Source of the DNA: Thermocoleostomius sinensis A174
GTDB taxonomy: Bacteria; Cyanobacteriota; Cyanobacteriia; Elainellales; Elainellaceae
DNA length: 64,000 nucleotides
Direction: 5' to 3'
Assembly: GCF_026802175.1 (NCBI RefSeq)
Contig: NZ_CP113797.1
Span: forward strand, 4,875,026-4,939,025
This document shows, piece after piece, positions 14,477 through 37,303 of the stretch (its first letter is position 1; every line of letters starts with the position of its first letter). A model generated the notes under the pieces. The model did not search any database. It worked only from the letters and a program-made list of their open reading frames with translations, and was not told the origin of the DNA. The position numbers and the translations under genes are program-made.

Positions 14477-14578
14477 TGGAGGAGATGTCCCTGATTCTTA
14501 GACTGATTCTTAGATTGCTTCTTGGGTTTTTCTTAGACCAATTCTCTATTCGGTTGTACCGGATGCTGACCCTCCCAA

Positions 14579-14599
14579 CCTCCCTTTGCCAAGGGGAGG
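14579..14599. repeat. Short CCTCCCTT/AAGGGGAGG hairpin element
   Basis: An inverted pair with a 4-base loop (TGCC), of the kind scattered through many cyanobacterial intergenic regions. It lies upstream of the 14012-14476 gene. Confidence 0.4.
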
Positions 14600-16723: not shown

Positions 16724-16926
16724 AAAACCTCCAAAAAAGGATGAGGGATGAAGGAAAGGCTATAAAAGTCAAGAATGAGGGATGAAGCGGTAGTGGATGG
16801 ATAGATGAGAGGAGGAAGGTGAGGAAGAGGGGAAAGCGATCGAACTAGCTTTTATGCCCTCTCTACCTACCTCGTCACCCCCGTCTCCAATCCCCAACCC
16901 TTGATCCCCTAATCCCCACGACCGCT

Positions 16927-19900
16927 TTACATACGGGACTGCTGAGTGTACAGGCAGTAATAAAGCTGGCGACGCGCCATCAAATCGTGGTGAGTACCCT
17001 GTTCAGCGATAATGCCTGCCTGCATGAACAAAATCCAATCGGCTGGGACGATTGTATTCAGTCGGTGGGTAATGAAGAAGCAAGTACGATCGTGGAATTT
17101 TCGCATCAGGTTCTCGCAAACTCGCCGCTCGGTCTCATAATCTAAGGCACTGGTAGCTTCGTCGAAGATCAGCAGTCTGGGGTTACGGGCGACTACGCGG
17201 GCAATGGCGATCCGCTGGCGCTGTCCCCCTGAGAGTGATCCGCCTCGTTCACCCACTTGGGTGCTGTAGCCGTCTGATAACTGCATAATAAAATCGTGGG
17301 CTTCGGCTACTTTAGCGGCTGCAATTACCTCTTCATCCGATAGGTTAGTAAATAGAGCAATGTTGTCGCGGATGGTTCCTTCAAACAACACAGCATCTTG
17401 AGGCACAATGCCAATTTGCGATCGCAGCGATCCTAAATTCACCTTGCTGACTTCGTATCCATCGATCGAAATGCTGCCTGTTTGGGCCGCATACAAACGC
17501 GGTAGCAATTTCATCAAGGTACTTTTCCCTGAGCCGCTTTGCCCGACAATGCCAACAAACGAACCGGCCGGAATATCGAGGCTGACGTTGGATAGCTGAA
17601 GTTGACCCGGCTTAAACCCAAAGCTGACTTCGTGATATTGCACCCGTCCGTCGATTGGAGGAAGCTGCAACCGGGTTGAGGATTGCGGGGTTTCTTCGGC
17701 TGGAAACTCGACAATATCGGCCAATAATTCCATTGACAACGACGTTTCTTGAAACCGCTGCCATAATCGCGCCAAGCGTAATAATGGCCCGGTGACATAT
17801 CCCGTCAAAATCCGAAAGGCAATTAAACCACCCAGTGTCAATTCTCCCTTCAGCACCGATTCTGCACCTACCCACAACACCAAAAGACTGCTAGTGGTAT
17901 TAAGAAAATGACTGAATGAACCAAACGTAGCGCTGACTGTTGAGGTTTTAAATCCACTGGCCAGATATTGCACATATCGTTCTCGCCATGTTGCTTCCAC
18001 CAACGATTCAATGTGTTGCGCTTTAACGGTAAAGATGCCACCTAATACTTCAACGAGATAGGATTGCACCTTAGATCCATGATCGGATTTGATCCGAATC
18101 AGTTTTCGCTGAAGCGTTGAAACAATTAGGGTTGAAAGAATTACTAGTGGAACCGTTAAAAGAACACATAGCGTTAAACGCGGGCTATAGAGAAACATCA
18201 CGGCTATGTAAAAGACCGAGAACACAACATCTAAGATTGCCGTGAGTGCCGTTCCGGTTAAAAACTGACGAATATTTTCTAATTCAGACAATCGTGATGA
18301 TAACTCACCAACCGGACGTTTTTCAAAAAAGTTCATCGGTAGGTGCAGTAGATGGCGAACAATTTCGATACCCAAGCGTAAATCAAGCCGATTGGTTGTG
18401 CTGGAGAGCAAATAGGTACGCAAAACAGTTAAGCCACCCTCTAGCATGGCGAATATGATCATCAACATGCCAAACATTGGCATAGCATTGACACTAGCAT
18501 TCACAATCACGTTGTCAATGACCTGTTGCACCAACAGCGGATTGGCTATCCCCAATAGCTGCACAAACATAGAGGCGATCAGCACTTGCAGCAAAATGCC
18601 TTGTTGTTTGGACAGCGCACCAATGAACCAGTGAAAGCCAAAATGTTTCAGAGGAGTTTGAGGTAATCGATCGAACACGATCGCCTGACATGCCGGAGAA
18701 AAACGATCGAAGGTGGTTGCATCAGGAGATAAGCGATTTGCTAATTGCTCAGGAGTTAAGCGCAGCAGCCCCGTGCGGGGAGAGCCAATGACGGTTGTTT
18801 TTGGGGAAACTTCATGCAAAATTGCTGGGATATCGTGGCAGCGCAACAGGGCCGGAGTCGTCAGCCGATTAAGACCACCCGCTGTAGGAGTGAAGCGAAT
18901 CAGTTCTGCACTTAAGCCAATCGCTTGAGCAATCCGTAAGTACAAATCATACGGCTCTAGATGGGTGGTGGAATTTTTCGTCAACCAGCGCCGCAGCGAA
19001 TCGGGGCGATAGGGCACTTGCAGCCGATCGCAAATCATGCCAAAACACGCTACCACATCTTCCACAGCAGTCGCTTCTGGCGATCGCCAAACGGAATAGG
19101 ATTGGGCTGAAGGGTCAGCAGACAGGGCAGGGCGGGGCGATGTGGCTGGAGATGGAGGAAATATCAACGATGGAGTAGAAATTGACGAGCCGTGATCGAG
19201 ATTTGTATCGATCGGGGTGTCAGAATCGATTGAGCTATCTGCAATGGGGGGATTGCTCGAAGCATTGCCGGGCAACAGAGGACGGTTAAACCCCGATCCA
19301 GGCAAGGTTGACGGTTTGGGAATGGCGCCGCTGAGAATGGCAGACGACAGAAACGCTCGATCGAGTCCCAAGAGCCGCACCGGAAACAATGACGGACGAT
19401 GCGGATTCAACTGATTAGCAGCCCCCACAGGCGTTCCAATCGGAATATTGAGATATTCACCACCGCTAACTAACCAAATTCGATCGGCAGTCAGTTCCAG
19501 AGGTGCAACGGTATGATACGAATGTCCGCTTGACATGGTGGGATGCCAATGTTTTGCAACCGCTAGCTGCTCGCGATCGATATACTGCACCAAATCCTTG
19601 AGGCTGACTTCAGAGAAACGAGTGGGCATTGTGGATAAAAACCGAGACAGCGTATCAAACAGTTCAATTAAGCTAATCCGCTCGGTCAATACTGACATCA
19701 AATGTTGTACAGCCAGTAATTCAAATTCATCGGCTGGTAAGGCCAATGTCAGCACATCGGCTAGCTGGTCTGGCGGCTGGTTGTCTGCTACTGTAATTGC
19801 CGCTCGTACCGAACCTACCGAAATCCGACGCAGTAGGCTATCCCACCCTATAACCTCACCCTTGCCAACAACAGCTAGGGTCGGGCTTTGATACGACGTG

Positions 19901-20109
19901 GGGCCCAACAGTCGAACTCGCTCTTGCACGACACAGTGAATGGCAGAAGGTAACTCTTTGGATGCATAGATAAGATCACCGGGGCGAAACGAGCAGAGAC
20001 GCAACTTTGAAGCAACCTGTCCTCGCAGCTTGGCGGGTACATGATTAAACGGCCAAGCTTCAAAGAATTCTGAAATGAATGAGTCAATTTGTGCATCTAC
20101 AGAAGTCAT
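16927..20109 (-). CDS. Type 1 secretion ABC exporter with N-terminal cNMP-binding-like and degenerate C39 domains
   Basis: About 1060 residues from ATG 20109 (a TTG at 20124 would add five). Order: a cyclic-nucleotide-binding-like domain (about 25-130, with FRPGDLIYAS and GKGEVIGWDSLL), a Pro/Ser-rich linker, a C39 peptidase-like domain (about 355-470), the six-helix exporter domain (about 500-790, with NPLLVQQVIDNVIV), and the ATPase with Walker A GQSGSGKST, LSGGQRQRIAIAR and LLIFDEATSALD. In the C39 domain the usual DCG active-site stretch reads EDVVACFG and the catalytic His region lacks a His, so it is probably a non-cleaving docking domain as in HlyB. This fits export of RTX proteins with uncleaved C-terminal signals. 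The start lies 11 bases after the PPIase stop. Confidence 0.92.
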   Translation of the reverse strand: MTSVDAQIDSFISEFFEAWPFNHVPAKLRGQVASKLRLCSFRPGDLIYASKELPSAIHCVVQERVRLLGPTSYQSPTLAVVGKGEVIGWDSLLRRISVGSVRAAITVADNQPPDQLADVLTLALPADEFELLAVQHLMSVLTERISLIELFDTLSRFLSTMPTRFSEVSLKDLVQYIDREQLAVAKHWHPTMSSGHSYHTVAPLELTADRIWLVSGGEYLNIPIGTPVGAANQLNPHRPSLFPVRLLGLDRAFLSSAILSGAIPKPSTLPGSGFNRPLLPGNASSNPPIADSSIDSDTPIDTNLDHGSSISTPSLIFPPSPATSPRPALSADPSAQSYSVWRSPEATAVEDVVACFGMICDRLQVPYRPDSLRRWLTKNSTTHLEPYDLYLRIAQAIGLSAELIRFTPTAGGLNRLTTPALLRCHDIPAILHEVSPKTTVIGSPRTGLLRLTPEQLANRLSPDATTFDRFSPACQAIVFDRLPQTPLKHFGFHWFIGALSKQQGILLQVLIASMFVQLLGIANPLLVQQVIDNVIVNASVNAMPMFGMLMIIFAMLEGGLTVLRTYLLSSTTNRLDLRLGIEIVRHLLHLPMNFFEKRPVGELSSRLSELENIRQFLTGTALTAILDVVFSVFYIAVMFLYSPRLTLCVLLTVPLVILSTLIVSTLQRKLIRIKSDHGSKVQSYLVEVLGGIFTVKAQHIESLVEATWRERYVQYLASGFKTSTVSATFGSFSHFLNTTSSLLVLWVGAESVLKGELTLGGLIAFRILTGYVTGPLLRLARLWQRFQETSLSMELLADIVEFPAEETPQSSTRLQLPPIDGRVQYHEVSFGFKPGQLQLSNVSLDIPAGSFVGIVGQSGSGKSTLMKLLPRLYAAQTGSISIDGYEVSKVNLGSLRSQIGIVPQDAVLFEGTIRDNIALFTNLSDEEVIAAAKVAEAHDFIMQLSDGYSTQVGERGGSLSGGQRQRIAIARVVARNPRLLIFDEATSALDYETERRVCENLMRKFHDRTCFFITHRLNTIVPADWILFMQAGIIAEQGTHHDLMARRQLYYCLYTQQSRM

Positions 20110-20120
20110 GCGGCGTGTCC

Positions 20121-20906
20121 TCAACCGTCTATAAGGGCTTCATCTCGGCTTGTGTTTGGTTCTGGCTGCACAGCGATCGTCCCTGGAGTTGCAAACAGCG
20201 AGCGAACTTGAGTTTGAAGCCACCGATCGTACAATTGATTGATTAGATTTGTGCGAGTTGCTTCAGTTAATCGAGCAGATGTCAACTTTTCTAAGCGTAC
20301 AATCCAAAAAGTTTCTGCAACAGGCACAGGTCCATAAATTGCCCCAACATGTTCATTGCGAAATAAAGTGGCAATTTCGATCGGCAGAGATGACATCGGT
20401 AATGGCCCAATCCACCCACCTGTCTGCCGTTCATTTCCCAAAGAATAACGTTGAGCGAGTTGGGCAAATTCGGCTCCATCATCGCGTAATTGAAAATATA
20501 ATTCTTGCGCTAATGGTAGATCGGTTAACTGAATTAATGAGAATTCAACTTGATCTAAATCAGATTTCGATCGCAAGAACTCGGATTCAACTTGATGAGC
20601 GAACTGTAAGTGTTTGAATTTATCAACTCGCAATCCTCGTAATAAGACTGCATTGAAATAGTCTGAAGTAATACCTTTGTGTTGACACCATTGCTGCACA
20701 AATTCCTCAAAATTGTCTGGCATCGCCACATCTGCATTTCCGACAAGCGCTTGGAACAGTTCTTGCTGAGAAATAGAAACATCTCGAATGATGTCATCTA
20801 ATAGCACCTGACCGACTAATGGCTCTAAGAGTTTGTATTGCACCAATGCAGAAATTAATTGATCGGCGCTGAGCAGGCGATTGCCAATCTTTAAACACGT
20901 ACTCAT
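20121..20906 (-). CDS. PpiC-type peptidylprolyl isomerase of a secretion operon
   Basis: 262 residues from ATG 20906, where GAGGG lies 7 bases upstream; the frame is open to 21026 but that extension lacks a start signal. Order: a helical N-terminal domain as in SurA/PrsA-type foldases (residues 1-125), then a parvulin-like domain (about 130-235) with FSLIQLTDLPLAQELYFQL, DGAEFAQLAQRYSLGNERQ, GGWIGPLPMSSLP and GPVPVAETFWIVRLE, then a short tail. There is no signal peptide, so it probably acts in the cytoplasm. Similar genes commonly precede type 1 exporters in cyanobacteria, perhaps keeping cargo export-competent. It starts the three-gene operon; the intergenic region upstream is over 1 kb and shared with the RTX gene. 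Confidence 0.85.
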   Translation of the reverse strand: MSTCLKIGNRLLSADQLISALVQYKLLEPLVGQVLLDDIIRDVSISQQELFQALVGNADVAMPDNFEEFVQQWCQHKGITSDYFNAVLLRGLRVDKFKHLQFAHQVESEFLRSKSDLDQVEFSLIQLTDLPLAQELYFQLRDDGAEFAQLAQRYSLGNERQTGGWIGPLPMSSLPIEIATLFRNEHVGAIYGPVPVAETFWIVRLEKLTSARLTEATRTNLINQLYDRWLQTQVRSLFATPGTIAVQPEPNTSRDEALIDG

Positions 20907-21169
20907 AGCATTGCCCTCAACCATGAACCGGAGACGATCGCCAGAGCATAATGCCCTTTCTATGAAAGCCTCCGCATTGGGCTGTGGTAACGATCGCACC
21001 CGATTTCCAAACTGGCATAGCTGCAACTGAACGCCATACCAAACGACATAACATCTATACAGAACGAAAACTGCTGTTCAGGAAGAGCACCAAAACCGAT
21101 CGGCTAGCTGGAACGTACTTTAATCTGATTCAGGCAAGTTAAGCGACCTCTGATTCAGCATTTGCCAGC

Positions 21170-21959: not shown

Positions 21960-22856
21960 ATGAGCAACACCACACAAAAAGCATTGGATGCGATTCTGGA
22001 AGCATTACAGAATAATGAAGAAATTAGACCCATCACGGGCAGACGACGGTTTAATGGCACGTCGAACGCAGATATATTCATTGGCAGCGATCGCAATAAT
22101 GTTGCCCGTGGCAAGCGCGGCAATGATATTTTAGTTGGCATTGCTGGCAACAATACACTCGATGGCGGCAACGGCAATGATCTCTTAATTGGTGGAGATG
22201 GAATCGATGTGCTGTCGGGCGGTAACAACCGGGATACACTGTTGGGCGGTGCAGGCGATGACCAACTCGACGGTGGCAACGGCAATGATTTTCTGGATGG
22301 TGGACTGGGTGCAGACGTGTTGACAGGCGGTAATGGAGTCGATCAACTCGTAGGTGGTGCTGGCGTAGATACCTTAACGGGTGGAGCCGATCGCGATCAG
22401 TTCATCTATAACGGTGATCTGTTTGCCAATGGTACGCCTGCGTTGGTTGCTGCGCCTAACATTAAGGTATTGAATACACCTGACATCATTACTGATTACA
22501 TGATCGGTGAAGATCAGTTTGTCTTTGACAGAGCCAATCTTGGGTCAAAAGATATTGTGTTCCAAAAAGGAACGGCATCGGGAATTGCGGCTGACGGCAA
22601 TGTGATTGTGTTAACGGATGGATTTGCGGCGGCAGGAGCGGCGGCTCGGGCCATTGCCAACAATGAGAATATTCAGGCAAAGGAAGGCGTGTTTGTGTAC
22701 TTTAACACCACGCTGGGCTTGACTCGTACCGTTTACTCGCAAGACTTAGCCAACGGTGGTGACATCAGCGTCCTAGCAAACTTAGACAATCAGCGTGGGG
22801 CGGTTGGACAAGCAAATATCGCTAATTTTACAGCCAATGATTTTGGGTTGGCTTAA
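21960..22856 (+). CDS. RTX (haemolysin-type) calcium-binding protein, probable type 1 secretion substrate
   Basis: 298 residues, acidic, no Sec signal. After a 30-residue helical start there are about ten glycine-rich nonapeptide repeats (about 40-140), for example GGNGNDLLIGG, GGAGDDQLDGG and GGLGADVLTGG, which form calcium-loaded parallel beta-rolls after export. The rest is a C-terminal domain (DIITDYMIGEDQFVFD, FVYFNTTLGLTRTVYS, NFTANDFGLA) common at the end of cyanobacterial RTX proteins and probably carrying the export signal. The start is ATG 21960. It is transcribed away from the exporter operon. A surface or extracellular role is inferred; no enzymatic domain is visible. Confidence 0.9.
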   Translation: MSNTTQKALDAILEALQNNEEIRPITGRRRFNGTSNADIFIGSDRNNVARGKRGNDILVGIAGNNTLDGGNGNDLLIGGDGIDVLSGGNNRDTLLGGAGDDQLDGGNGNDFLDGGLGADVLTGGNGVDQLVGGAGVDTLTGGADRDQFIYNGDLFANGTPALVAAPNIKVLNTPDIITDYMIGEDQFVFDRANLGSKDIVFQKGTASGIAADGNVIVLTDGFAAAGAAARAIANNENIQAKEGVFVYFNTTLGLTRTVYSQDLANGGDISVLANLDNQRGAVGQANIANFTANDFGLA

Positions 22857-23078
22857 TTCTGCCGAAGTACAGCTTGGGTGAGGTGAGCAACATTCACCCT
22901 GCTTAAAGTTCTCCCAACCATCGATGCACTACCGTATCTTGTGACAAACATGACCTCGTGAACTGTTAAATTGTTTAGCTCCTGATTACCTAGAAACACT
23001 AGCCTAGAAACGTGTCGGTTAACATGTTGAGACAACAGGGTGCACCTACTTTTACCATCTGTTTGGAATTTCCTCGCC

Positions 23079-24041
23079 ATGAAACAACGAATTTTAGGAG
23101 GTGGAGCGATCGTTTGCTCTGCGATGGTGATGTATGGCTGGGCGCAATCTTCCACCTCCAATTTCAATTTGGGTAACTGTGTTGGTGAATTCGCCAAAAA
23201 ACTTTCTGGACGGTCTCAAGCTGAAAATCAAGCGCAGGAGCGTTGTGTACCCATCACCCTTCCCAAATTGAGCCAAGTTCCAGAGCAACTGTCCATTCCC
23301 AGCCTCAGCCGTGCTAGCAAAGTACCTCCCGCCATGGAATCCATGTACGCTGAGTTGTTGGCACAAGCCCATGCCAGTGCCGATGCCGATCGCATTGCCG
23401 AAGCCATTACGATTGTGGCAGGTATTCCTAAAAACAGTCAGCATCACGGAGTAGCTCAACAACTGCAAGAGGACTGGTCTCAAGAGTTATTAGAAAGGGC
23501 GACGAATCGTTATCAACAGGCCGATATGCCCATGGCCATGACCATGCTGAATGCCATTCCTCAAACGAGCCAACGATATGATCGCGCCACCGAATTACGC
23601 GACCGCTGGCAACAGCAAACTACTGCCCTCGATCAAGCTCTGGCTGCCAAGGACATTGGCGACTGGACTAGTGTAATTGCGGCTTTAGGCACGTTAGAAG
23701 GCACCGATTTGTATCATAGTGCGCTGGTTCAACAACTATTACAGCAAGCCACTCAAAAGCGGTTTGAACCTGATGCCGCCCTGATGCAATTAGCCACCAC
23801 CGCTGCTACCGCATCTTCCCAAGAAATTCCCCTATCAATTCCTTCAACGATTCCTTCAACTGTATCGATCGATCCAGTTCCACAACCTACCAATCTAGTC
23901 GTTGCCCTCGATCAAGCGTTGGAATGGGCACGTCCTACTCCCGTTTCTCCATCTGTACCATCGAAAGCACCCAAACGGGAAGCGATGGTGAACACAACTC
24001 ATTCAGCGATCGATTCATTGACAAAAGGGTTATTGCAATAA
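23079..24041 (+). CDS. Exported protein with TPR-like helical repeats, unknown
   Basis: 320 residues from ATG 23079; the frame is open from GTG 23040, but the ATG places a signal-like segment (RILGGGAIVCSAMVMYGW) at the N-terminus. The mature part contains two or three related helical repeats with the pattern A-I-x-x-x-x-x-IP-x-x-S-x-x-x-x-x-A-x-x-L-x-x-x-W (GIPKNSQHHGVAQQLQEDW and AIPQTSQRYDRATELRDRW), suggesting a tetratricopeptide-like solenoid, then a Pro/Ser/Thr-rich tail. Such repeats are frequent in cyanobacterial proteins and normally bind other proteins. The partner is unknown. It lies just after the RTX gene, but a 222-base gap makes an operon uncertain. Confidence 0.65.
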   Translation: MKQRILGGGAIVCSAMVMYGWAQSSTSNFNLGNCVGEFAKKLSGRSQAENQAQERCVPITLPKLSQVPEQLSIPSLSRASKVPPAMESMYAELLAQAHASADADRIAEAITIVAGIPKNSQHHGVAQQLQEDWSQELLERATNRYQQADMPMAMTMLNAIPQTSQRYDRATELRDRWQQQTTALDQALAAKDIGDWTSVIAALGTLEGTDLYHSALVQQLLQQATQKRFEPDAALMQLATTAATASSQEIPLSIPSTIPSTVSIDPVPQPTNLVVALDQALEWARPTPVSPSVPSKAPKREAMVNTTHSAIDSLTKGLLQ

Positions 24042-24723: not shown

Positions 24724-24756
24724 AACAAAAAGATAGCCTTGGTAAACGAGGCTATC
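24724..24756 (-). terminator. Terminator of the kinase/Fe-S/FHA-reductase operon
   Basis: A perfect 8-bp stem GATAGCCT (24732-24739) / AGGCTATC (24749-24756). On the minus strand it is followed by TTTTTGTTCC. It lies 38 bases past the stop of the FHA-reductase gene. Confidence 0.75.
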
Positions 24757-24793: not shown

Positions 24794-26326
24794 CTAGGCT
24801 TCTACCACCACCCGATCAACTGGATAGCCCACGCACGCTAAGGCATAACCTGCCTGTTGATCTTTGTCAGAAAGAGCAGCCGGGGGCGCATCATATCGCA
24901 CTTGACCTTGGCGCGTCACTACTTTGCAGGCTCCACAAGCCCCCACGCGGCAGGCGTTGGGAATAGCGATGCCTTCTTGCTCGGCTAACTCTAAAATTGA
25001 TGAGCAATCATCGGCCACAACCTCTTTGTTGGACTTGGCAAAGCTAACCATTGGTGCAGATTTTGAGGTGACGCTGTTAGCCACGCGATGCCCATTGCCG
25101 TTGTTGAGGTTGCCGTTGCTGAGAATAACCGTGGCTTGGTCGGGGCGGGTTTCCACAGGTACAGTTGTCTTTGTGTTTGATACCGTTGGCTTTTTGCCAC
25201 CAAAACTCTCTTGTTGATAATTTTGCATCGGAAAGCTCATGGCTTCGAGCATGGATTTAACACCTTGCATGAATCCATCTGGCCCACAGACAAAGACCGA
25301 TCGTTCTAAAAGATCGGGAGCAACTAAGTGCAACAGTGATTTAGAAATGCGTCCTGTATAGCCCATCCAAGCGTGACCAGACAGTTGGCGCGTCACTGTG
25401 ATGGCGAGGTGAAAGTTGGGCATTTGGGCTGCCATTGTTTCTAACTCGGTGCGAAAGACTAAATCGTTGGCGCTGCGGGCACTGTGCAGAAAAACAATAT
25501 CGCAATCAGCCAAACTGTCTTGTACCCAACGAGACATAGACATCATGGGGGTGATGCCGCTTCCGGCAGAAATCAACAGTAGCTTGGAGGGTAAATTGGG
25601 TAAACAGGTGAAGTGACCAATCGGGCCACCAATGAAGTTAATGCGATCGCCTACCTGAAGATGATCATGTAACCAATTGGAAACTAATCCCGGTGGCGCA
25701 TCAGGTTGATCCGGAGGGGAAGACACTCGCTTAACGGTAATGCTGAGATGATAGGGACGAGTGGGCGAAGAGGAAATGGAATAAGGGCGAATGACAGGTT
25801 TACCATCAATTTCCACTTGCACATTCACAAACTGCCCTGGTTGATAGGTGAATAAAACGGGTGGTTCAGCGACAAAGCAAAACGTCTTAACGTCGGCTGT
25901 TTCGTCAATGATGCGACAACAACGGCACTGCAAGTCTCCTTCTGTCCACAGTTGATCGGGTAACGGCAAGGTGGCGACAGGAGCAGGCACAAATGAAACA
26001 GGCGTTGGCGGGGAGAGTTCTTCGACATACAAAAACGTTTCGCCAATTTGTAGTAAATCGCCCGGACGGAGGGGACGGCGATCGTGCACAAGCACCGCTT
26101 CACCATTCAGCAGCGTTCCAGAGGTGCTGCCGACATCAACAAAATGATAGGTATCGTCGTTGTAAATAATTTGTCCGTGCACTCGACTCACTTCTGGACT
26201 GGGCAATACTAAGTCAGAGGTGGTATTACGACCAATCACCCATTCTGTTTGACCGGGATAGGACTGATCGAGGTGATGATTTTGAAATTGACGCTGCTCA
26301 AAATTTACTGATTTCAGTTTCAGCAT
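24794..26326 (-). CDS. FHA domain - FNR-type flavoreductase - [2Fe-2S] ferredoxin fusion protein
   Basis: 510 residues. Residues 1-105 are an FHA domain with the phosphothreonine-binding set: IGRN (Arg33), SRVH (47-50), GSTSGT (66-71) and a following Asn. Residues about 125-370 are a ferredoxin-reductase module with RPYSISSSP (FAD site), GSGITPMMS (nucleotide site) and FVCGPDGFM. A Ser/Asn-rich linker leads to a C-terminal plant-type ferredoxin (about 425-510) with Cys459, Cys464, Cys467 and Cys498, the complete C-X4-C-X2-C ligand set. The reductase-ferredoxin order resembles NADH oxidoreductases such as Hcr; the FHA addition means binding to phosphorylated partners. Cytoplasmic. Third gene of an operon with a Ser/Thr kinase and a membrane Fe-S protein. 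Confidence 0.92.
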   Translation of the reverse strand: MLKLKSVNFEQRQFQNHHLDQSYPGQTEWVIGRNTTSDLVLPSPEVSRVHGQIIYNDDTYHFVDVGSTSGTLLNGEAVLVHDRRPLRPGDLLQIGETFLYVEELSPPTPVSFVPAPVATLPLPDQLWTEGDLQCRCCRIIDETADVKTFCFVAEPPVLFTYQPGQFVNVQVEIDGKPVIRPYSISSSPTRPYHLSITVKRVSSPPDQPDAPPGLVSNWLHDHLQVGDRINFIGGPIGHFTCLPNLPSKLLLISAGSGITPMMSMSRWVQDSLADCDIVFLHSARSANDLVFRTELETMAAQMPNFHLAITVTRQLSGHAWMGYTGRISKSLLHLVAPDLLERSVFVCGPDGFMQGVKSMLEAMSFPMQNYQQESFGGKKPTVSNTKTTVPVETRPDQATVILSNGNLNNGNGHRVANSVTSKSAPMVSFAKSNKEVVADDCSSILELAEQEGIAIPNACRVGACGACKVVTRQGQVRYDAPPAALSDKDQQAGYALACVGYPVDRVVVEA

Positions 26327-26378
26327 GATCGGTTCTTGTGTAGGGAGTGGGGCAGAAGGAATAGAAGAGAAGGCAGGA

Positions 26379-26398
26379 GGGCGATCGCGGAATCGCCC
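26379..26398. promoter_or_regulatory. Intercistronic hairpin between the Fe-S and FHA-reductase genes
   Basis: GGGCGAT (26379-26385) / ATCGCCC (26392-26398), perfect 7 bp with a 6-base loop, in the 98-base gap. It contains a HIP1-like GCGATCGC. It might set relative expression or stabilise the mRNA. Confidence 0.35.
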
Positions 26399-26424
26399 TT
26401 ACCTAAGGCTCGTATCCAGAGGCT

Positions 26425-28185
26425 CTAATTTCGATCGCGGTTGTGACCGAGTGAGGGATCAGAACCAGTCCTGGAACGATGACGCAGTTGTTTGGCGATG
26501 GTTTTTGCTAGGGTGACAGCATCGTGCATTTCGGGCGATTGCTGTGTTTCGCGTGGGGTTGTCAAGATGTCTGGGTTCATCGCCGCGATCGTTTCAATGG
26601 CAGCAAAGTGGTCGGCATCGCTTACCTGTAAATCTTGGCGTAATTTTCGACAGAAATCAAAGCTGCTGGTGGCATCGACTATGTTTTGTTCTAACAAGTC
26701 TTGAACAACGCCTGTATAACTCTGGAGCCGCAATTGCTGAGAGAATTCTGACAGCACTTTAACGAGTGTGTATACTTCATCCGAGGAAAGATCTTCAAGC
26801 TCGCGTCCCTCTAATAGGCTGGCATCGAGGTTGAGTTTGTGCAGTTGCTTTCGTAAGCTGGCAGCCATGCTTTCTCGTTCGTATTGAGACCGATCGCGAC
26901 CGAAGGTGCGATAAAGCCACATAGAGCCAACTAAGACAATCAGCGCATTGAACGCTAATAACGGCATTGGTGGCATTCGGTTGAGAGATGGTCGTGCTCC
27001 GTAGGAGAAGAAGGTCCAAAATGATGCAGCGGTGAAAATAGTGAAGATGGCATGTTGAGCTTGGATGGCTGTTACAGCACGACCACGCCATCCGGTGTAG
27101 AGACGATAAAGCCGTTCAAGAAGTTGACCAAGCGTAAAGGTAATGGCAATGAGCACAAAAAAGGTAATGAATACAGCTATCAGTTTGGGAATGGGCAGGG
27201 AATGGCCGTAGATATAAAATCCCGTATCCAATACTTTGGAGACTTGATCTTCTTCATGTGTCCATGCACCTGTGAAGTAATAATCCCAGTTACCGGCATA
27301 GAGGAAATAATACAAATAAAATGCAATTACCATGCCCAAATAGCCATATTGCACTAGCCGCCGTCCCGGTTTGCTCAGTTCGGTCCAATAGTTCTTTTCA
27401 GCATCGATGTCAAAGCAAGGCATTTTACAACTGACACAGGCACTTCGTTCTTGCTTAGTGACGGGATCAACTATACGACACATTGATTGAGAAATGATTG
27501 GCTTTTGAGATAAGTGCGCTTGACTTCCCAATAACGATCGTGGCCCAGTATACACAAGCTGCACAGGAGCCATCGGACAGAAGTAATGACACCAGCTTTT
27601 TCCGGCATAGAGATATCCCACTAGAATGGCGCAGAGAATGCTGCCAATCAAGAAAAAGCCAAGCATATGACGATCGGAATTGGTAAACAAAATGCGCCCT
27701 CCCAACCCCAGCACAAACAAACCAAACTGAACATAGAGATGGTTGCGACCAAGCCAGGAATTTTCGCCAATGGTGACAACTTCCGATCGAATTTCACCCG
27801 TGAGGGGATCAATGACTTTACGCCGTCGCTGAATGCCAAGCGCCCGTGGAATTTGCGACAGAAATGATAATGGACAAATACGCCGCCAGAATTCATGTCC
27901 TAGAACTAACAAGATAAAAATTCCAGCCGGGACAATCATCGCCCACCACATCAGTGCTCCCATCGCAAAGGGTTGTTCGGGCATGCATGTTTCGCGAATT
28001 TTGACACACTTAATTGGATCTAAATAAATTTCCGGTCTTAGGCGAAAAGGACTCGCCAAATTATCCGGATGCGTGAACATGGGCGTGATTGGATCATAGA
28101 AAAATGAGAAGATAAGCAAAAGCCAACCAAGCGTTAGCACCCAACGAACAGAGTGCATTGTTTTTTCGGAAACATTATTCAGCAT
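26425..28185 (-). CDS. Membrane 4Fe-4S polyferredoxin-like protein (NapH/CcoG-like appearance)
   Basis: About 586 residues from ATG 28185; an extension to 28248 would overlap the upstream gene and lacks support. At least six membrane helices are visible (about 12-30, 78-100, 150-170, 180-200, 285-305, 340-365, 400-420, 430-450). Cysteine clusters: RRICPLSFLSQIP, WCHYFCPMAPVQLVYTGP and CVSCKMPCFDIDAEK, of the type found in NapH/CcoG membrane iron-sulphur proteins that pass electrons across or along the membrane. The C-terminal 130 residues are soluble, charged and helical, not part of those families. It lies 46 bases after the kinase gene and 98 bases before the FHA-reductase gene. The electron partner is unknown but the neighbouring flavoreductase-ferredoxin is the obvious candidate. 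Confidence 0.85.
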   Translation of the reverse strand: MLNNVSEKTMHSVRWVLTLGWLLLIFSFFYDPITPMFTHPDNLASPFRLRPEIYLDPIKCVKIRETCMPEQPFAMGALMWWAMIVPAGIFILLVLGHEFWRRICPLSFLSQIPRALGIQRRRKVIDPLTGEIRSEVVTIGENSWLGRNHLYVQFGLFVLGLGGRILFTNSDRHMLGFFLIGSILCAILVGYLYAGKSWCHYFCPMAPVQLVYTGPRSLLGSQAHLSQKPIISQSMCRIVDPVTKQERSACVSCKMPCFDIDAEKNYWTELSKPGRRLVQYGYLGMVIAFYLYYFLYAGNWDYYFTGAWTHEEDQVSKVLDTGFYIYGHSLPIPKLIAVFITFFVLIAITFTLGQLLERLYRLYTGWRGRAVTAIQAQHAIFTIFTAASFWTFFSYGARPSLNRMPPMPLLAFNALIVLVGSMWLYRTFGRDRSQYERESMAASLRKQLHKLNLDASLLEGRELEDLSSDEVYTLVKVLSEFSQQLRLQSYTGVVQDLLEQNIVDATSSFDFCRKLRQDLQVSDADHFAAIETIAAMNPDILTTPRETQQSPEMHDAVTLAKTIAKQLRHRSRTGSDPSLGHNRDRN

Positions 28186-28231
28186 AGTGATGTCAGAATA
28201 GTTGTAGTTAATGACTTGGAACCAAATAATC

Positions 28232-30148
28232 TCAAGGCAGTGCTGCACTCATTTGCCAAACTTGCAATCGATGATCGGGGTTCCAACTGACCAAAAAACG
28301 ATGATCGGGGCTGAGGGCCACATTCAAACTTTGTCCCAAATCACCCGTCTTTTCCTCTACCAAGCGTCCAGCCCGCGCTCCCCAAACTCGAATACTGCCA
28401 TTGTTATTGACGGTAATCATCTGTTGGTCATTCAGCGATGCTGTCACGGTTTTTGCTGACTTCTCGGAACACACTTGCATCAATTCTTCGCGCTCAAGAT
28501 TCCACACCAAGGCGCGATCGTCACCAACACTCACGAGCAACTGATCAACCCGTTGTAAACCGAGGATAGTTCCGGTATGTCCGGCAAATTGGCGATGAAT
28601 TCTATCAGCCACCAAATCCCAAACGAGTAAGCGATTGCCGCTGGCACTGATCAATTGCTCTGGCTGTGCTCCATAGACTAGCGCGGTAATTGCAGTCTCA
28701 GATGCATCAATGGTCTTTAGCAATGCGCCAGTCGTCACATCCCACAGCCGAATGGTTCCAGTTTGGTCGCCACTAGCCAACGTGTTCGCATCGGCACTTA
28801 GGGCAACGGCTGTCACGGGTGCTGGAAGCCCCTCAAGGGTCTGCAACACTTGTCCGGACACCGCATCCCACAACCGCAGGGTTCGGTCGTCACTGCCACT
28901 TACCAACAACCGACTATCTTGACTCATCCCGATCGCATTAATTCTGCCCGTATGCCCGCTGAGCGACTGTTGGGCAGTTTCATTGCTTAATGACCACAAA
29001 TATAAGACGTGATCCGAACCAGCCGCGACAATCGTTTGATTGTTGGGGGCAACCAAGAGACGATCGATCTCCACATCAACCGACCAGTCGCGCAAGATGC
29101 TTAAATCTACCGTCGCAGATCGGGTGAGCAGGGCTAATCTAGACAGTGTCAGGTTGGGATCTTCTTGACTATAGAAATAACCAGCACCTAACAGACTAGA
29201 CAGTAAAACAGCCGTGATAGCGGGTTTCCACACTCGTTGCACCGATCGCTGCCAGTTTGGCACCACCCATTGACGAGTCGATCGACGATGAGGACGATCG
29301 AGAGGCAGGGCTTGCAAATCAGACAGCACATCAGCAGCAGACTGATAGCGATTGTGAGGATGGCTCCGCACCATTCGTTCTAGAATGGCGATGAACTCAG
29401 CCGAAAGCGTGGAATGCCCTGACGATTCGTGCAGATGCCGCTGCCAATTGAGTTCTCCTGAGATTAAATCTTGCTGAAATTGACGGGGTTGTATCCCCGT
29501 AAGCAATTGAATGGTCAACATGCCTAGAGCGTACAGATCGCTATTCATCTGCGACATTCCCAATTGCTGCTCGTCTGGCATATAACCGGGCGTACCAATG
29601 ACGATCGGGGTATCGTCGCTATCGGGTTGTGTTTGAGTGTCAGTTTCGGCAAGAAAACAGGCGGCTCCAAAGTCAATCAAAACGACTTGACCATCTCGAC
29701 GACGACGAATTAAATTGCTGGGTTTGATATCGCGGTGAATCACGCGATGGGAATGAATATATTCCAAGACAGGTAGTACGCTCTGCAATAGATCGATCGC
29801 CGCTTCTCCAATCAAGCGCCGTCCTTGTTTGATCCAATCTCGCAGGTTTTCACCATCGATGTATTCCTGAACTTGATAAATTTGTTCCTGTTCATGGCAA
29901 TAAGCATACAGGGTTGGAATTTGCGCATGTTGTCGTCCTAGTTGATCAAGAATGCGTGCTTCTGTTTCAAATAATCGCTGTGCTGTTTCTGGAGAAATAG
30001 CGCTATCTGGCGATACATTCAAGTATTTAACAACGCAAACTGGATGTCGCGGCAGATATTTGTCGCGAGCCAAGTAGGTTTCGCTGAATCCACCCGCACC
30101 TAACTTTTTCAAGATCAAATAGCGTCCGGCTAATAGTTGTCCTATCAT
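28232..30148 (-). CDS. Serine/threonine protein kinase with C-terminal WD40 repeats
   Basis: 638 residues. The kinase domain (about 10-275) has GAGGFSET (17-24), the ATP-binding Lys41 in VVKYLN, HRDIKPSN (138-145) and DFG (159-161), so it should be active. A membrane helix lies at about 312-328 (AITAVLLSSLLGAGYFY). The outer part (about 350-638) holds six or so WD40 repeats (LVSGSDDRTLRLWDAVSG, LASGDQTGTIRLWDVTTG), probably a beta-propeller sensor or scaffold. First gene of the three-gene operon; the FHA domain encoded two genes downstream is a natural reader of its phosphothreonines. The start is ATG 30148. It is divergent from the response regulator across 946 bases. Confidence 0.93.
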   Translation of the reverse strand: MIGQLLAGRYLILKKLGAGGFSETYLARDKYLPRHPVCVVKYLNVSPDSAISPETAQRLFETEARILDQLGRQHAQIPTLYAYCHEQEQIYQVQEYIDGENLRDWIKQGRRLIGEAAIDLLQSVLPVLEYIHSHRVIHRDIKPSNLIRRRRDGQVVLIDFGAACFLAETDTQTQPDSDDTPIVIGTPGYMPDEQQLGMSQMNSDLYALGMLTIQLLTGIQPRQFQQDLISGELNWQRHLHESSGHSTLSAEFIAILERMVRSHPHNRYQSAADVLSDLQALPLDRPHRRSTRQWVVPNWQRSVQRVWKPAITAVLLSSLLGAGYFYSQEDPNLTLSRLALLTRSATVDLSILRDWSVDVEIDRLLVAPNNQTIVAAGSDHVLYLWSLSNETAQQSLSGHTGRINAIGMSQDSRLLVSGSDDRTLRLWDAVSGQVLQTLEGLPAPVTAVALSADANTLASGDQTGTIRLWDVTTGALLKTIDASETAITALVYGAQPEQLISASGNRLLVWDLVADRIHRQFAGHTGTILGLQRVDQLLVSVGDDRALVWNLEREELMQVCSEKSAKTVTASLNDQQMITVNNNGSIRVWGARAGRLVEEKTGDLGQSLNVALSPDHRFLVSWNPDHRLQVWQMSAALP

Positions 30149-31094: not shown

Positions 31095-31775
31095 ATGCGC
31101 GCACTCTTAGTTGCACACGAACGCGGTACAGCCCGATTTATTCAGCAAGGACTCGCTCGTGCTGGCTATGCAGTGGATGTTGCGGTGGATGGTCAGGCTG
31201 GCTTGAATGACGTGCTCGGTACTGATTACGATGTCATCATCTTAGATATTGTGTCACCGCTAATAGATGGGCTTCGCTGGTTGCGGGAATTTCGCACAAA
31301 ACGCTTAAAGCCGCCTGTACTGTTTCTATTTTCCCGTGAAGGGATGGAGGAACGGCTCGAATTCAATCTAAGCACCTTGAATCTGGAAGCGAATGATTAC
31401 TTAGTGAAGCCGTTTGTTTTTTCAGAATTATTGGTGCGTCTACGATCGTTATTACGGCGCCCCTCGGCTTTGACCGATACCCTATTGCAGGTTGGCGATC
31501 TAGAAATGGATACGGTTGCTCACCAAGTACGATGGCATAATCAGGAAATTCACTTGAGCGTTCGTGAATTCGCACTATTAGAATACTTGATGCGACATTC
31601 GGGGCAAGTGTTAACCCGTGCTCAAATTGCACAACAGGTGTGGAATTTTAAGTACACTAGCGACACGAAAGTGATTGACGTTTATATTGGGTATTTGAGA
31701 CGAAAGTTGAATCAAGGTGCAGCGAAGGTTCCGATTCAGACCGTCCGTGGGGTGGGATACCGCTTGAGCTTGTAG
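31095..31775 (+). CDS. OmpR/PhoB-family response regulator with unusual receiver residues
   Basis: 226 residues: receiver domain 1-120 and winged-helix DNA-binding domain about 128-224 (HLSVREFALLEYLMRHSGQV, VIDVYIGYLRRKLN, VRGVGYRLSL). The phosphoacceptor Asp51 in VIILDIV and the Lys in DYLVKPF are present. The acidic pair after the first strand is His8-Glu9 instead of two acids, and the conserved Thr/Ser position after strand four reads FLFSREG, so phosphorylation may be altered. The start ATG 31095 has CAGGAGAGG upstream. No histidine kinase gene is adjacent; the nearest sensor-like gene, at 32254, is damaged. Confidence 0.9.
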   Translation: MRALLVAHERGTARFIQQGLARAGYAVDVAVDGQAGLNDVLGTDYDVIILDIVSPLIDGLRWLREFRTKRLKPPVLFLFSREGMEERLEFNLSTLNLEANDYLVKPFVFSELLVRLRSLLRRPSALTDTLLQVGDLEMDTVAHQVRWHNQEIHLSVREFALLEYLMRHSGQVLTRAQIAQQVWNFKYTSDTKVIDVYIGYLRRKLNQGAAKVPIQTVRGVGYRLSL

Positions 31776-32253
31776 AGAAAGTATGTAAAAACTAGTGTGT
31801 TGGGCCACATAGCTCGCAGCGATCGGCTAGAGTGGGTGATTTTGTATCACACCTTCAATTTGTGATCTGAGGTCAATCTCATGGTGATCTTGCACAATGA
31901 CAAACGTCATGATCAAATCAATTACAAAATTCTTCCAGCGAATAGCTGATTTTTAGCCGATTATCATTCATCGATTAGGGATCATTGTATCCTTGCCGGT
32001 CAGTCTAACTGCGCTGAAATAGGTGGGAAAAGCAAGAAAAGTAAGGTTGTGAAAAATTCCTAGTCACTTCTTACTGAATTCTTACAAAATTCTCGTAATC
32101 TATTTTGTTGAGCTTCTCTGATAAAGTGATGAACGAGAAATAACGATTGTGGTGTAGCTACTTGCTGTTAATCCCACACACAGTGCTAGAGAAGGTACAA
32201 AATTAGTTTAGTGTAGCTTCATCGAATCTAGGCTACAGAGGTGCAAGGATAGC
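31776..32253. other. Intergenic region between response regulator and PAS gene
   Basis: 478 bases, AT-rich. I see no gene, repeat or strong terminator in it. Confidence 0.4.
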
Positions 32254-33519
32254 GTGGAAAAAATTGCGACTTTTTGGGATATCCCTGGGATGCAATCAAA
32301 GATCTCCCTGGAGTTTCTAGCCAAACTGCTAGATCCTATTTGTATATACGACGAACAGGGTCAAACGGTTTACGCCAGCCCCAAATTTCTAGAAGCTTTT
32401 GAGTCTAACGCAGAAGAGGTCAATTTTTTTCAGTACTTTCCATCTGACATCACCCCCATGTCAGCGTTAATTGACGGCTGGCAACGTGCCCTCCAGGGTG
32501 AAACCGTTTTGTTTGTACTCCGCTCTAAAACACAGGTCGAACTTGAATGTTCGCTGCAATTCAATCCGGATGCAAAGTTGATGTTTTTAAGTGCTAGAAG
32601 GTCTACCTTGGGGGCTTATGTAGATCAGCTAATCAGTGAATATGAACAGCTATTGTTGACCTTATTCAATCATCCCAACGTGGCAGCGATCGTCGTTGAT
32701 TTTAATGGGCGGATTGTTCGTGCCAGTGCCAAACTGCATGAAATGTTGGGGACACAACCCGATGAAGAGATCTATCTTGAAACATTTGTACATCCGGAAG
32801 ATAAATTCATTGATCTGAATTTACGACAGCGCTTACTTGATGGAGAGATTAAAACCTATACGATCGAAAAACGCTTGATCTCACGACGAGGAGATGTGAC
32901 TTGGATCAATGCCAGCGTGTCACTGATTACTTTATCCAGCAGCATCAACTGTGCGCAGCGATATTTGGTGGCACTATTAGAAGACATCACAGAAAATAAA
33001 AAAATTTATGCTGCGTTGATTCACACTGAAGCAAAATGGAAGGCGTTTGTTCTCAATAGTTTGAGCTTATTTCTTCAAACTAGCCGTACTGGACAAATTA
33101 TTTACGCTAGCCCAGCAGTAGAGCACATTTTAGGCTATACCGAGGAAGCCCTGTTGGGAGTTCATGTAACCAGCTTAATTCACCCAGAAGACATCGCAAT
33201 TTTTGAAGAAGCTTTGCCAGTTTGGACAAGCAGTATATATTCCCAGCGGGCAGGCATTGAATGTCGTTGGAAAACTCAATCCTCAAACTCGGTATACCTT
33301 TATACACAAGGACGGCGATTTCCGTTGGCGTTGGGTATGGATGGTCTTATCATCAGCGGTCATGACATTACGGTGCGAAAGCAAGCTGAAGCCGAATTAC
33401 GCCGGAGTGACGCTATCAACCGCATTATGATACAACTACTACCAAATTTAATGCGTTGTCTCAGTCAACTTGATGGACTACAGGAGCTAGCCTATGCTCG
33501 CAACCTTCAATTTCCTTAG
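32254..33519 (+). pseudogene. PAS-domain sensor protein, frame-damaged and probably truncated
   Basis: 421 codons open from GTG 32254. Three PAS domains are seen: about 18-105, 130-250 (VVDFNGRIVRASAKLHEMLG, SRRGDVTWINASVS, LLEDITENKK) and 262-385 (IIYASPAVEHILGYTEEALLG, GHDITVRKQAEAELR). In the third, the segment that should encode the conserved KDG-x-x-R-W strand is in the +1 frame: bases about 33225-33345 read as QFGQAVYIPSGQALNVV and FIHKDGDFRWRWVWM there, while the flanks match PAS in the main frame. Two compensating indels explain this. After PAS3 a fourth sensor start (RIMIQLLPNLM) breaks off, and no kinase or cyclase output domain follows. It may still be translated as a protein of reduced function. 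Confidence 0.65.
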
Positions 33520-34027: not shown

Positions 34028-35428
34028 ATGCCAAGGCACGATGCTAAAGCAGGCACCCCGTTACTCCATCAAACCGAGCGTTTTCCTGCTGTTGCCAATA
34101 ATGCAAGTTCAGATAGCGAATTGATGCAGTATACGGACATGCTTGCTCAAGTTAACCAACTCAAGTCCAATGCCAAGCTTGCATTGATATACGAACTAAT
34201 TAGTGAGCTTGAGACTGAACAAATTCAGTCGTTATTGGAGTTTGCCCAGCGAGAAATCACTGAACGTCAACGTCTGCTGTCTCCGTCGTTACCGCCTTCC
34301 GATCGCAAAACACGGTTACTGCTGAAAAAAGACTACAGCTATCAAAATCGCGGTTTAAGTGAACCTAATCAATACTACGTTTATTTGCGACGCCGTAAAC
34401 CTAAACTCGATCGCTATATTGGCACGCTGTTCTATATCCCGCAAGGTTGTACGCTCTCCTATTTTCCAGATGCGGAAGGACGAGTTCTGTTCAATCCTCC
34501 TCACAACACCTTTCAATTGAAGGATGCTAATAATCCTGACTTGATACGGTTGGTTCGGTTAATTGGTTTGGAACCCCCACCCTCAGACTATACCTTTACG
34601 AAACAGCAAAATGATGTCCCAGAAATTTATCTACGTCTAGAATATCTTGACCCGCATACTTACCAGTCGATCGGCGAAAAGATTTATCCATTTCCATTCT
34701 GTATGTATGAAGGTGGAGAACTCGATCGCTATCGTTGGGATGTTACAACAGTTGTCTTGCCGTCGGAAACAAAGGTTGAAACGAATACAAAAATAAACAC
34801 AAACATATATTCAGAACTACACCAAGAACTACAAGCAATCGATTCACCATCTCATGCGAGATCGAGTTCATGCGTTCCATTCTCTTCTGAACCTTGTTCA
34901 ACCGATTCAACTCAGGCGATCGAACATCCGTCTTCATCAGAGTTGTTGACAAACAATAGCTCAACAAAAGACAAATTATCTCATGAATCTTCTCGACGAG
35001 TAATTCAACTACCCCCGACTAAAGCAATCACCTTCTATTTAACCGATCGTCGCGATGCATCAACGGTCTTGGAGCGAATGCGCTTATGGGTGTCATGGAG
35101 TGATAGGGCCATGCCTCAATCTCGGTGGGAACTTGTGCAGAATAATAGTAGCTATACATTAATGAATGCCAACTTCAAGCGAACGATTTTGAGTTTCTCG
35201 ATCGATGCAGCCTCTATGAGGCTTGAGAACTCGCTGCCTGTTCTTATGCAATGGTTTCATGATTTAGCATTGGCTGTGTCTCAGTCGCAAAGTCAACGCT
35301 GCTACAGCGCAGCACAACTCAAACTAGCACATAACTTGTTTGTTGAGATGAGCCTCCCGCAAGATAATCCGCTGGTGGTGCTTAAAACGTTGTTTGGAGT
35401 AGATTTTTCTGAACAGGAATGTCTTTGA
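34028..35428 (+). CDS. Unknown cyanobacterial-type protein, 466 residues
   Basis: Soluble, no signal peptide. Order: a helical segment (about 33-80, LALIYELISELETEQIQSLL), a basic beta-rich middle (about 95-245) with RLLLKKDYSYQNRGL, YYVYLRRRKPKLDRYIGTLF and YLRLEYLDPHTYQSIG, a Ser/Thr-rich disordered linker (about 250-325), and a C-terminal domain (KAITFYLTDRRDASTVLERM, WSDRAMPQSRWELV). The middle domain resembles short basic RNA- or DNA-contacting domains, but I cannot assign a family. The start may be ATG 34028 or ATG 34124 (MQYTDML); neither has a clear ribosome-binding site. Confidence 0.6.
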   Translation: MPRHDAKAGTPLLHQTERFPAVANNASSDSELMQYTDMLAQVNQLKSNAKLALIYELISELETEQIQSLLEFAQREITERQRLLSPSLPPSDRKTRLLLKKDYSYQNRGLSEPNQYYVYLRRRKPKLDRYIGTLFYIPQGCTLSYFPDAEGRVLFNPPHNTFQLKDANNPDLIRLVRLIGLEPPPSDYTFTKQQNDVPEIYLRLEYLDPHTYQSIGEKIYPFPFCMYEGGELDRYRWDVTTVVLPSETKVETNTKINTNIYSELHQELQAIDSPSHARSSSCVPFSSEPCSTDSTQAIEHPSSSELLTNNSSTKDKLSHESSRRVIQLPPTKAITFYLTDRRDASTVLERMRLWVSWSDRAMPQSRWELVQNNSSYTLMNANFKRTILSFSIDAASMRLENSLPVLMQWFHDLALAVSQSQSQRCYSAAQLKLAHNLFVEMSLPQDNPLVVLKTLFGVDFSEQECL

Positions 35429-35714: not shown

Positions 35715-37157
35715 TTAACGAGTCGAAACTGCCAACACAGGTGATGTAACCCGATCGTCCTGCTGAGATAATTGACTGAGAATGGCGTCTAGATTTTTCT
35801 TGGCATCGCCAAACAACATGCGCGTATTGTCTTTATAAAACAGTGGGTTTTCTACTCCGGCATAGCCACTGGCCATGCTGCGTTTCATCACAATCACGGT
35901 GTTAGCTTTCCACACTTCCAAAACAGGCATTCCGGCGATCGGGCTACTGGGGTCTTCTAGGGCGCTGGGGTTGACCGTGTCATTGGCTCCAATGACCAAC
36001 ACCACATCAGTTTTCGGAAAGTCATCGTTAATCTCGTCCATTTCTAAAACAATGTCATAGGGCACATTTGCCTCTGCTAGTAGCACATTCATATGCCCCG
36101 GCAAGCGACCTGCGACTGGATGAATGCCAAACCGCACCTCAACGCCTCGCTGACGCAACACTTTTGTAATTTCTGAGACTGAATGCTGGGCTTGTGCCAC
36201 TGCCATGCCATAGCCCGGCGTAATAATCACGCTTTGCGCATTTAGCAGTAGATCGATCGTGTCTTCGACGGTCGTTGACGTTGCTTCACCCGTGGGACGA
36301 CTACCCTGGTTTCCGGTTCCACTCCCCGCACCAAATCCACCTAAAATCACGCTGAGAAAATGACGATTCATGGCTCGACACATGATGTAGCTAAGAATGG
36401 CGCCACTGCTGCCTACTAGGGCACCCGTAATAATCAAGAGATCATTAGACAACATGAACCCGGCAGCGGCGGCGGACCACCCGGAATAGCTGTTGAGCAT
36501 TGAGATTACAACAGGCATATCAGCCCCACCGATCGCCAAAATCAGATGAACACCCAATAGGGCCGCCAATCCCGTCATGATCAGGAGTGGCAACAGTCCA
36601 TCTGAGTTTTCTGCCCCCATAAACAACACACCCAACCATACCGACACCGCCAATAGCCCTAAATTCAGCGCATGGCGAGCCGGTAGCAATAGTGGTTTAC
36701 TGGGCAGAATCGTCCGCAGTTTTCCGAAGGCAATGAGCGACCCAGTAAAGGTCACTGCCCCAATGAAGACACCAATGAAAATTTCTAGTTTGTGGATGGT
36801 TTCTTCTGCCCCAACCAGAGGTTGCCCCGATTGGAGATGGTTCGCAATGCCCACCAGCACTGCTGCGGCTCCAACAAAACTATGCAAAACTGCCACTAGT
36901 TCCGGCATCGAGGTCATTGCCACGCGAGACGCGACAATCGCCCCAATCACGACACCCGGAATGACCGCCGCACCCAGGATGGCATAGCCTCCGCCCATAA
37001 CGCTAGTCAAGGCCGTAGCCCCAACCGCAATTACCATGCCGAGAATGCCATATAGATTGCCTTTACGGGCTGTTTCTTGATCTGACAATCCGCCCAAGCT
37101 AAGGATGAACAAGGCGCTCGCCGCAATATAAGCGACGGTTAAAAGGTTGCTGGACAT
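35715..37157 (-). CDS. pntB: NAD(P) transhydrogenase subunit beta
   Basis: 480 residues. The N-terminal 270 residues hold eight to nine membrane helices with glycine-rich segments ([20 protein letters not shown] is the typical opening) forming the proton channel; the C-terminal 190 residues are the NADP(H)-binding domain III, with [47 protein letters not shown] and [16 protein letters not shown]. Together with PntA it couples hydride transfer between NADH and NADP+ to proton movement. The length matches E. coli PntB (462). It follows pntA by 146 bases that contain a tandem heptamer repeat; co-transcription is likely. Confidence 0.96.
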
Positions 37158-37177
37158 GTTTTCTGTTTAGGTTTAGA

Positions 37178-37212
37178 GGGTAATGGGTAATGGGTAATAG
37201 GTAATGGGTAGT
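37178..37212. repeat. Heptanucleotide tandem repeat (GGGTAAT type, five units)
   Basis: Three perfect GGGTAAT units (37178-37198) followed by AGGTAAT and GGGTAGT. Such heptamer arrays are typical between cyanobacterial genes. It lies between pntA and pntB. Confidence 0.75.
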
Positions 37213-37303
37213 GGGGGTGGGAAATAATAGGGGAATGGATTGGGTCGGTGTTGTCTACCATTCGAAGTTTTACTGAATCTCCAATCCCTAACCTCCAATC
37301 CGC

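Follow-up and report, generated by a model that had tools for sequence, protein, structure and literature searches.

The docking of an FHA domain onto a threonine phosphorylated by a Ser/Thr protein kinase (STPK) is known from GarA/OdhI, from the mycobacterial FhaA-MviN pair and from Fha1 of the type VI secretion system, and the NADPH oxidases NOX5 and RBOH pass electrons from NAD(P)H and FAD into a membrane protein under the control of EF-hands and phosphorylation. NapH, for which quinol oxidation has been proposed, is needed for membrane attachment of the cytoplasmic Fe-S protein NapF (PMC5928378). Here we describe, in a window of 64,000 nt from Thermocoleostomius sinensis A174 (NZ_CP113797.1, 4,875,026-4,939,025; the genome comprises 5.8 Mb in a single contig), an operon that encodes an STPK with a WD40 propeller (kinase-WD40), a membrane Fe-S protein (MID) and an FHA-flavoreductase-ferredoxin fusion (FHA-RED). 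We consider it rather likely that MID and FHA-RED form a phosphothreonine-gated two-component redox module, in which electrons pass from FHA-RED to MID. The parts are each of a known kind; a search of open-access papers found no account of their combination, of the threonine-tagged MID tail or of the exchangeable control modules, and no described system of this composition, in agreement with the initial annotation of the locus.

As in GarA/OdhI, FhaA-MviN and Fha1, a kinase-marked threonine in a flexible segment would be read by an FHA domain, and the ETTSVFR of GarA resembles the [DE]xT[VI]xR of the MID tails. Unlike in these systems, phosphorylation would mark a membrane Fe-S protein, and the reader would be a redox enzyme. 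The proposed module shares with NOX5/RBOH the NAD(P)H-FAD input into a membrane protein, and related MIDs carry EF-hands; however, it would comprise two polypeptides with Fe-S centres, and no ferric-reductase haem domain was found in Pfam scans of MID. The operon and its parts are as follows:

28232-30148, minus strand: kinase-WD40, 638 aa (open reading frame (ORF) list, Pfam)
residues ~12-271 of kinase-WD40: kinase domain (Pkinase PF00069, 2.6e-36)
residues ~309-327 of kinase-WD40: probable single transmembrane (TM) segment (hydropathy)
residues ~340-636 of kinase-WD40: C-terminal WD40 propeller (Pfam WD40 match)
26425-28185, minus strand: MID, 586 aa counted from ATG (ORF list)
27871-27888, minus strand: W100-x3-C104-P105, degenerate CX3CP (WRRICP) after TM2 of MID (48-homologue alignment)
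27574-27591, minus strand: C199-x3-C203-P204, intact CX3CP (CHYFCP) after TM4 of MID, invariant
27415-27480, minus strand: C236...C250-x2-C253-x3-C257, predicted second Fe-S site of MID (invariant cysteines; low model confidence here)
26428-26574, minus strand: MID tail, residues 538-586, with the motifs T558-LAK and T562-IAK, predicted phosphothreonine ligand of FHA
24794-26326, minus strand: FHA-RED, 510 aa (ORF list, Pfam)
26042-26242, minus strand: FHA domain (Pfam; alignment of 17 homologues)
25199-25909, minus strand: FAD/NAD(P)H reductase domain (R180-x-Y182-S, GSGITPMMSM, CGPxGFM)
24821-25033, minus strand: plant-type 2Fe-2S ferredoxin domain (C459-x4-C464-x2-C467...C498)
24727-24756, minus strand: probable intrinsic terminator of the operon (direct sequence reading; stem listed by the scanner on the other strand)

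The layout given in the initial annotation is seen in the ORF list and in the sequence: three genes on one strand, with gaps of 46 bases (kinase-WD40 to MID) and 98 bases (MID to FHA-RED), followed by a terminator. The ORF list additionally gives a GTG extension of MID that reaches 28248. Downstream of FHA-RED, the minus strand (24756-24727) reads GATAGCCTCGTTTACCAAGGCTATC-TTTTTG, i.e. a 10-bp stem and a run of T. The terminator rests on this reading, because the scanner places the stem only on the plus strand and finds terminator-like sites over the window no more commonly than in shuffles. The three-gene unit is real and its arrangement is far from chance.

A homologue search over 60 relatives and named genomes yielded 54 fully flanked loci once near copies had been removed (L-numbers such as L054, L140 or L193 are labels of the compared loci). 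The kinase-MID-FHA-RED triplet is present in many Leptolyngbyaceae-like genomes, and its strict order is found in 18 loci, whose MID cores share no more than 88% identity and some of whose ORFs overlap or nearly abut; MID and FHA-RED also occur in Moorena, Nostoc, Scytonema, Tolypothrix, Calothrix, Pleurocapsa, Chamaesiphon and others. MID, or its long form MID-long, lies within 8 kb of FHA-RED in 50 of the 54 loci, usually as the gene directly upstream on the same strand. FHA-RED is encoded in 49 of 242 genomes of the class, and 48 of these 49 also encode MID. An STPK lies within 8 kb in 39 of the 54 loci, while a kinase lies within 8.75 kb of 9.4% of random points in the host genome (binomial p ~ 1e-28, shared ancestry ignored). 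The expectation that the three genes are neighbours in relatives was thus borne out, with order and strand kept across many genera. The notion of a three-gene unit holds for the exact triplets, but the kinase type varies, and the invariant core is MID with FHA-RED. Two metagenome-assembled genomes labelled Chloroflexaceae (L116) and Gracilibacteria (L140) bear MID/FHA-RED of the cyanobacterial type, and these contigs are probably misbinned. In L065, L086 and L155 the copies are broken, with frameshifts or stops that split MID and/or the kinase.

The tail of MID is poorly conserved and disordered in the AlphaFold2 model (pLDDT <50 over residues 544-560 and 568-586). It carries the motif T-[VIL]-x-[RK], often as [DE]xT[VI]xRP, in one to three strict copies per tail; looser variants, e.g. 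DPTTVVSRR and DPTIVAPR in L082, repeat more often. In 43 deduplicated tails T[VIL].[RK] occurs 60 times, compared to 6.1 +/- 2.4 in 2000 shuffles (which ignore shared ancestry), and is present in 36 tails, compared to 5.7, whereas its Ser form occurs once against 5.8 in shuffles. Taken by itself, the triplet clade shows the enrichment (28 vs 2.2), and so do the remaining tails (32 vs 3.9). The density of the motif is 25.4 per 1000 aa in the tails and 1.2 in other ORFs, a difference of ~20-fold, and the last 60 aa carry it in 40 of 51 FHA-adjacent short MIDs, compared to 68 of 815 other proteins. As carriers, kinases (1.26 per 1000 aa) and RED-Fer2 linkers were considered and rejected, as both are near background. 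Among short MIDs without FHA-RED nearby, the strict motif was found in one of six, less often than in the FHA-adjacent ones (Fisher p = 0.005, or 0.02 with MID-long included), and FHA-RED is encoded within 4 kb of this single protein, from L140. The proposal in the initial annotation, with the tail phosphorylated by the kinase and bound by the FHA domain, thereby gains support at the level of sequence from the threonine-motif enrichment, with the docking itself predicted.

The presumed reader, FHA-RED, contains, as originally described, an FHA domain, a complete flavoreductase and a 2Fe-2S ferredoxin in one protein, with Pfam matches to FHA (PF00498, 1e-16), FAD_binding_6, NAD_binding_1 and Fer2. 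Residues G32, R33, S47, S67, G70 and N74 of the phosphothreonine site are invariant in 17 homologues, and R48 and H50 are kept at >=90%; the FHA domain thus has the sequence features of a phosphothreonine reader, for which binding of a phosphopeptide is predicted. The reductase part has the FAD site RxYS and the NAD(P) site, and the plant-type ferredoxin cysteines C459, C464, C467 and C498 are all invariant in these homologues. FAD_binding_6, NAD_binding_1 and Fer2 follow the same order as in the Hcr and GbcB reductases, from which FHA-RED differs by the addition of the N-terminal FHA domain and by having a membrane protein as its partner. It scores 356 bits against NF058606 (cut-off 500), the model of the glycine betaine monooxygenase reductase GbcB, and 182.5 bits against PRK10684, the Hcr-type NADH oxidoreductase (NF007964, cut-off 383), and stays under the curated cut-off of every equivalog model listed. 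A deltaproteobacterial FHA-fused reductase (L162:6122-11482), with no MID nearby, adjoins prismane/Hcp and cytochrome c552 genes; it is possibly a phospho-controlled Hcr.

The AlphaFold2 model of MID (mean pLDDT 82) has eight long helices that fit TM segments, followed by a cytoplasmic helical domain and the disordered tail. W100, C104 and P105 of the degenerate motif are invariant in 48 homologues, and the cysteines of the second Fe-S site (C236-C257) share a cytoplasmic loop with the intact CX3CP; loop charges (the positive-inside rule) assign a cytoplasmic location to the tail and to all seven invariant cysteines. MID resembles NapH, NosR, RdhC and CcoG in its weakly matching Fer4_5-like module, the CX3CP after TM4 and the cytoplasmic cysteine loops. 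However, it has WX3CP instead of the first of the two CX3CP motifs of the NapH/CcoG types throughout the 48 homologues, eight TM segments, and an extra helical domain with a tail, and it matches no equivalog model. Its assignment to NapH/CcoG was therefore rejected (8.8 bits for CcoG, cut-off 316.7), and this likeness is kept as an analogy. The window protein has no Pfam match above threshold: Fer4_5 reaches 18.0 bits (cut-off 22), matches each of the 48 homologues weakly (best 4e-8) and exceeds the cut-off in the relatives from L173 and L181. In the initial annotation MID was described as a polyferredoxin-like membrane protein with an extra soluble tail. Neither sequence nor fold search revealed a solved homologue, and MID defines a membrane Fe-S family with no above-threshold Pfam family and no solved relative.

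Four forms of MID can be distinguished: the short form with the threonine-motif tail, which adjoins FHA-RED; MID-long with a cyclic-nucleotide-binding domain, at times also with an FHA domain, which adjoins FHA-RED in Nostocales and elsewhere stands alone, including a copy at 1.98 Mb of the host genome; a form with EF-hands (L180:8339-10540 and L181:583-2730), for which FHA-RED was not found nearby; and a short form with neither the motif tail nor FHA-RED nearby. Short forms adjacent to FHA-RED occur in several clades of the MID tree, which also contain MID-long. Since the cyclic-nucleotide-binding domain (with or without FHA) or EF-hands occupy the same end of MID, the C-terminus is the place of control modules.

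Kinase-WD40 has the complete catalytic motifs of a Hanks-type enzyme, i.e. the P-loop, HRDIKPSN, DFG and the activation segment, in addition to its Pkinase match, as noted before. Its TM segment is weak in hydropathy (1.26 at 309-327, compared to 1.64-1.88 in the counterparts from L054 and L056), and several kinases near MID/FHA-RED show a clear TM segment between the kinase domain and the sensor. These sensors vary: WD40, CHASE2 in Nostocales, and periplasmic-binding-protein domains in Xenococcaceae and Chamaesiphon; the WD40 kinases themselves form two families, whose kinase domains are ~28% identical. The kinases at MID/FHA-RED loci are interchangeable. Because neighbouring kinases carry other sensors, the propeller, for which the roles of sensor or scaffold had been suggested, is best seen as one exchangeable sensor and not as an obligate scaffold.

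We infer the following course of events. An envelope signal would be perceived by an extracytoplasmic kinase sensor, in this operon probably the WD40 propeller beyond a single TM segment, and the activated kinase would phosphorylate threonines of the disordered MID tail on the cytoplasmic side. FHA-RED would bind the phosphorylated tail through its FHA domain, bringing FAD and 2Fe-2S to the cytoplasmic Fe-S sites of MID. Electrons would then flow from NAD(P)H through FAD and 2Fe-2S to MID, and onward to a membrane or periplasmic acceptor, most likely quinone, which is the first candidate by analogy with the NapH-type proteins.

Several observations weigh against this scenario. The no-partner control set is small (n=6), and 11 FHA-adjacent tails lack the strict motif, most of them with variants like ETQIRR or EPTQLRK. 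The tips of the tree are not independent, and the shuffles ignore this shared ancestry. At several loci a motif-bearing tail is encoded with no kinase gene in the vicinity. The MID-long proteins of Nostocales lack the threonine-motif tail beside FHA-RED, so their switch must differ. Finally, the electron route is drawn by analogy, because MID has no match among solved structures. Electrons could run in the opposite direction or elsewhere, with MID oxidizing quinol, or reducing a metal as CcoG does, and FHA-RED accepting electrons or acting as a mere partner; even then, phosphorylation may still gate the docking. The likeness of MID to the NapH-type module (Fer4_5, CX3CP) and the proposal of NapH as a quinol oxidizer (PMC5928378) point in this direction. 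Nonetheless, we regard it as rather unlikely, given that FHA-RED has the full NAD(P)H-FAD-2Fe-2S set of a GbcB/Hcr-type reductase, relatives of which use NAD(P)H to supply a partner with electrons, and that the first CX3CP of MID is degenerate.

It is somewhat less probable still that FHA-RED is recruited to the kinase itself, via phosphothreonine in the activation loop or juxtamembrane region, as part of a kinase-reductase scaffold, while the tail motif serves another role. FHA domains have been reported to bind phosphothreonine of kinase activation loops (as cited in PMC7291507), several further FHA proteins encoded in the host genome are possible tail readers, and the tail-less MID-long of Nostocales nevertheless adjoins both FHA-RED and a kinase. 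Yet the motif is threonine-specific and resides in the MID tails, while kinases carry it at background level, and the constant partner of FHA-RED is MID, not the kinase. The tail threonines could also remain unphosphorylated, within a basic or amphipathic element that lies near the membrane or serves docking. The tails are often basic, and AlphaFold2 predicts a low-confidence helix at 552-572; however, threonine is preferred and serine depleted at the motif, often with acidic residues 2-3 positions ahead. An FHA ligand would account for this preference better than an amphipathic helix would, and we regard this explanation as very unlikely. Chance neighbourhood in a signalling-rich genome could be suspected, considering the many STPKs, WD40 and FHA proteins of cyanobacteria (PMC2176072) and the 35 STPKs encoded here. 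We reject it as hardly credible in view of the order and strand kept across divergent genera, the co-occurrence in 48 of 49 genomes and the kinase linkage reported above (ancestry ignored).

If the phosphothreonine-gated module is confirmed, an FHA-phosphothreonine contact would act as a gate on electron transfer, not on metabolism, division or secretion, and predictions of the substrate sites are already available. To our knowledge, most cyanobacterial Ser/Thr kinases have no known substrate, and the operon gives a testable role to a part of this large set. It is tempting, albeit quite unlikely, to regard MID as the core of signal-gated transmembrane electron exporters with interchangeable C-terminal controls (the threonine tail read by FHA-RED, cyclic-nucleotide binding plus FHA, or EF-hands), a bacterial functional counterpart of NADPH oxidases on the envelope (in superoxide or metal reduction) that is tied to secreted adhesins. 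This speculation would fit the Cu/Zn superoxide dismutase, vanadium-peroxidase-like, RTX and two-partner-secretion genes at these loci.

The following neighbours of the operon in the window recur in related loci:

21960-22856, plus strand: RTX calcium-binding protein, of a family that recurs at these loci
23040-24041, plus strand: 333-aa protein with no Pfam match, conserved neighbour in the triplet lineage
15251-21026, minus strand: type I secretion genes, recurrent neighbours (HlyD 15251-16723, ABC exporter 16927-20124, PpiC-type isomerase 20121-21026)

In the window's lineage, the RTX family, the 333-aa-type protein and type I secretion genes are found close to many of the loci. RTX ORFs in general are within reach in 15 of the 54 loci, compared to ~7% expected (p ~ 4e-6, ancestry ignored), and the host genome contains just two copies of the RTX form whose C-terminal region matches. 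In Nostocales the neighbours include two-partner-secretion genes, CHAT, DUF928, the CHASE2-kinase and Cu/Zn superoxide dismutase. RTX and type I secretion genes were rejected as parts of the core module, as many loci with MID/FHA-RED lack them. The association with secreted surface proteins, which recurs without being universal, is thus taken as a functional hint. Elsewhere in the host genome (L193, 5.586-5.604 Mb), positions 7537-14587 of the locus hold RTX and WD40 proteins with a type-2-like WD40 kinase and without MID/FHA-RED, and such a cluster adjoins MID/FHA-RED in L075 and L078. A vanadium-chloroperoxidase-like gene (L122:12566-14329, Moorena) and a Cu/Zn superoxide dismutase gene (L143:12040-12606, Nostocales) lie near MID/FHA-RED and suggest a possible link to reactive oxygen species. 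In the window, 31095-33519 and 34028-35428 encode a response regulator, a PAS protein and a 466-aa protein with no annotation; of these, the PAS protein and the 466-aa family each recur as triplet neighbours at 14 of 83 loci. Genes for the alpha and beta subunits of NAD(P) transhydrogenase (PNTB; AlaDh/PNT) are located at 35715-38920, 5 kb past the kinase.

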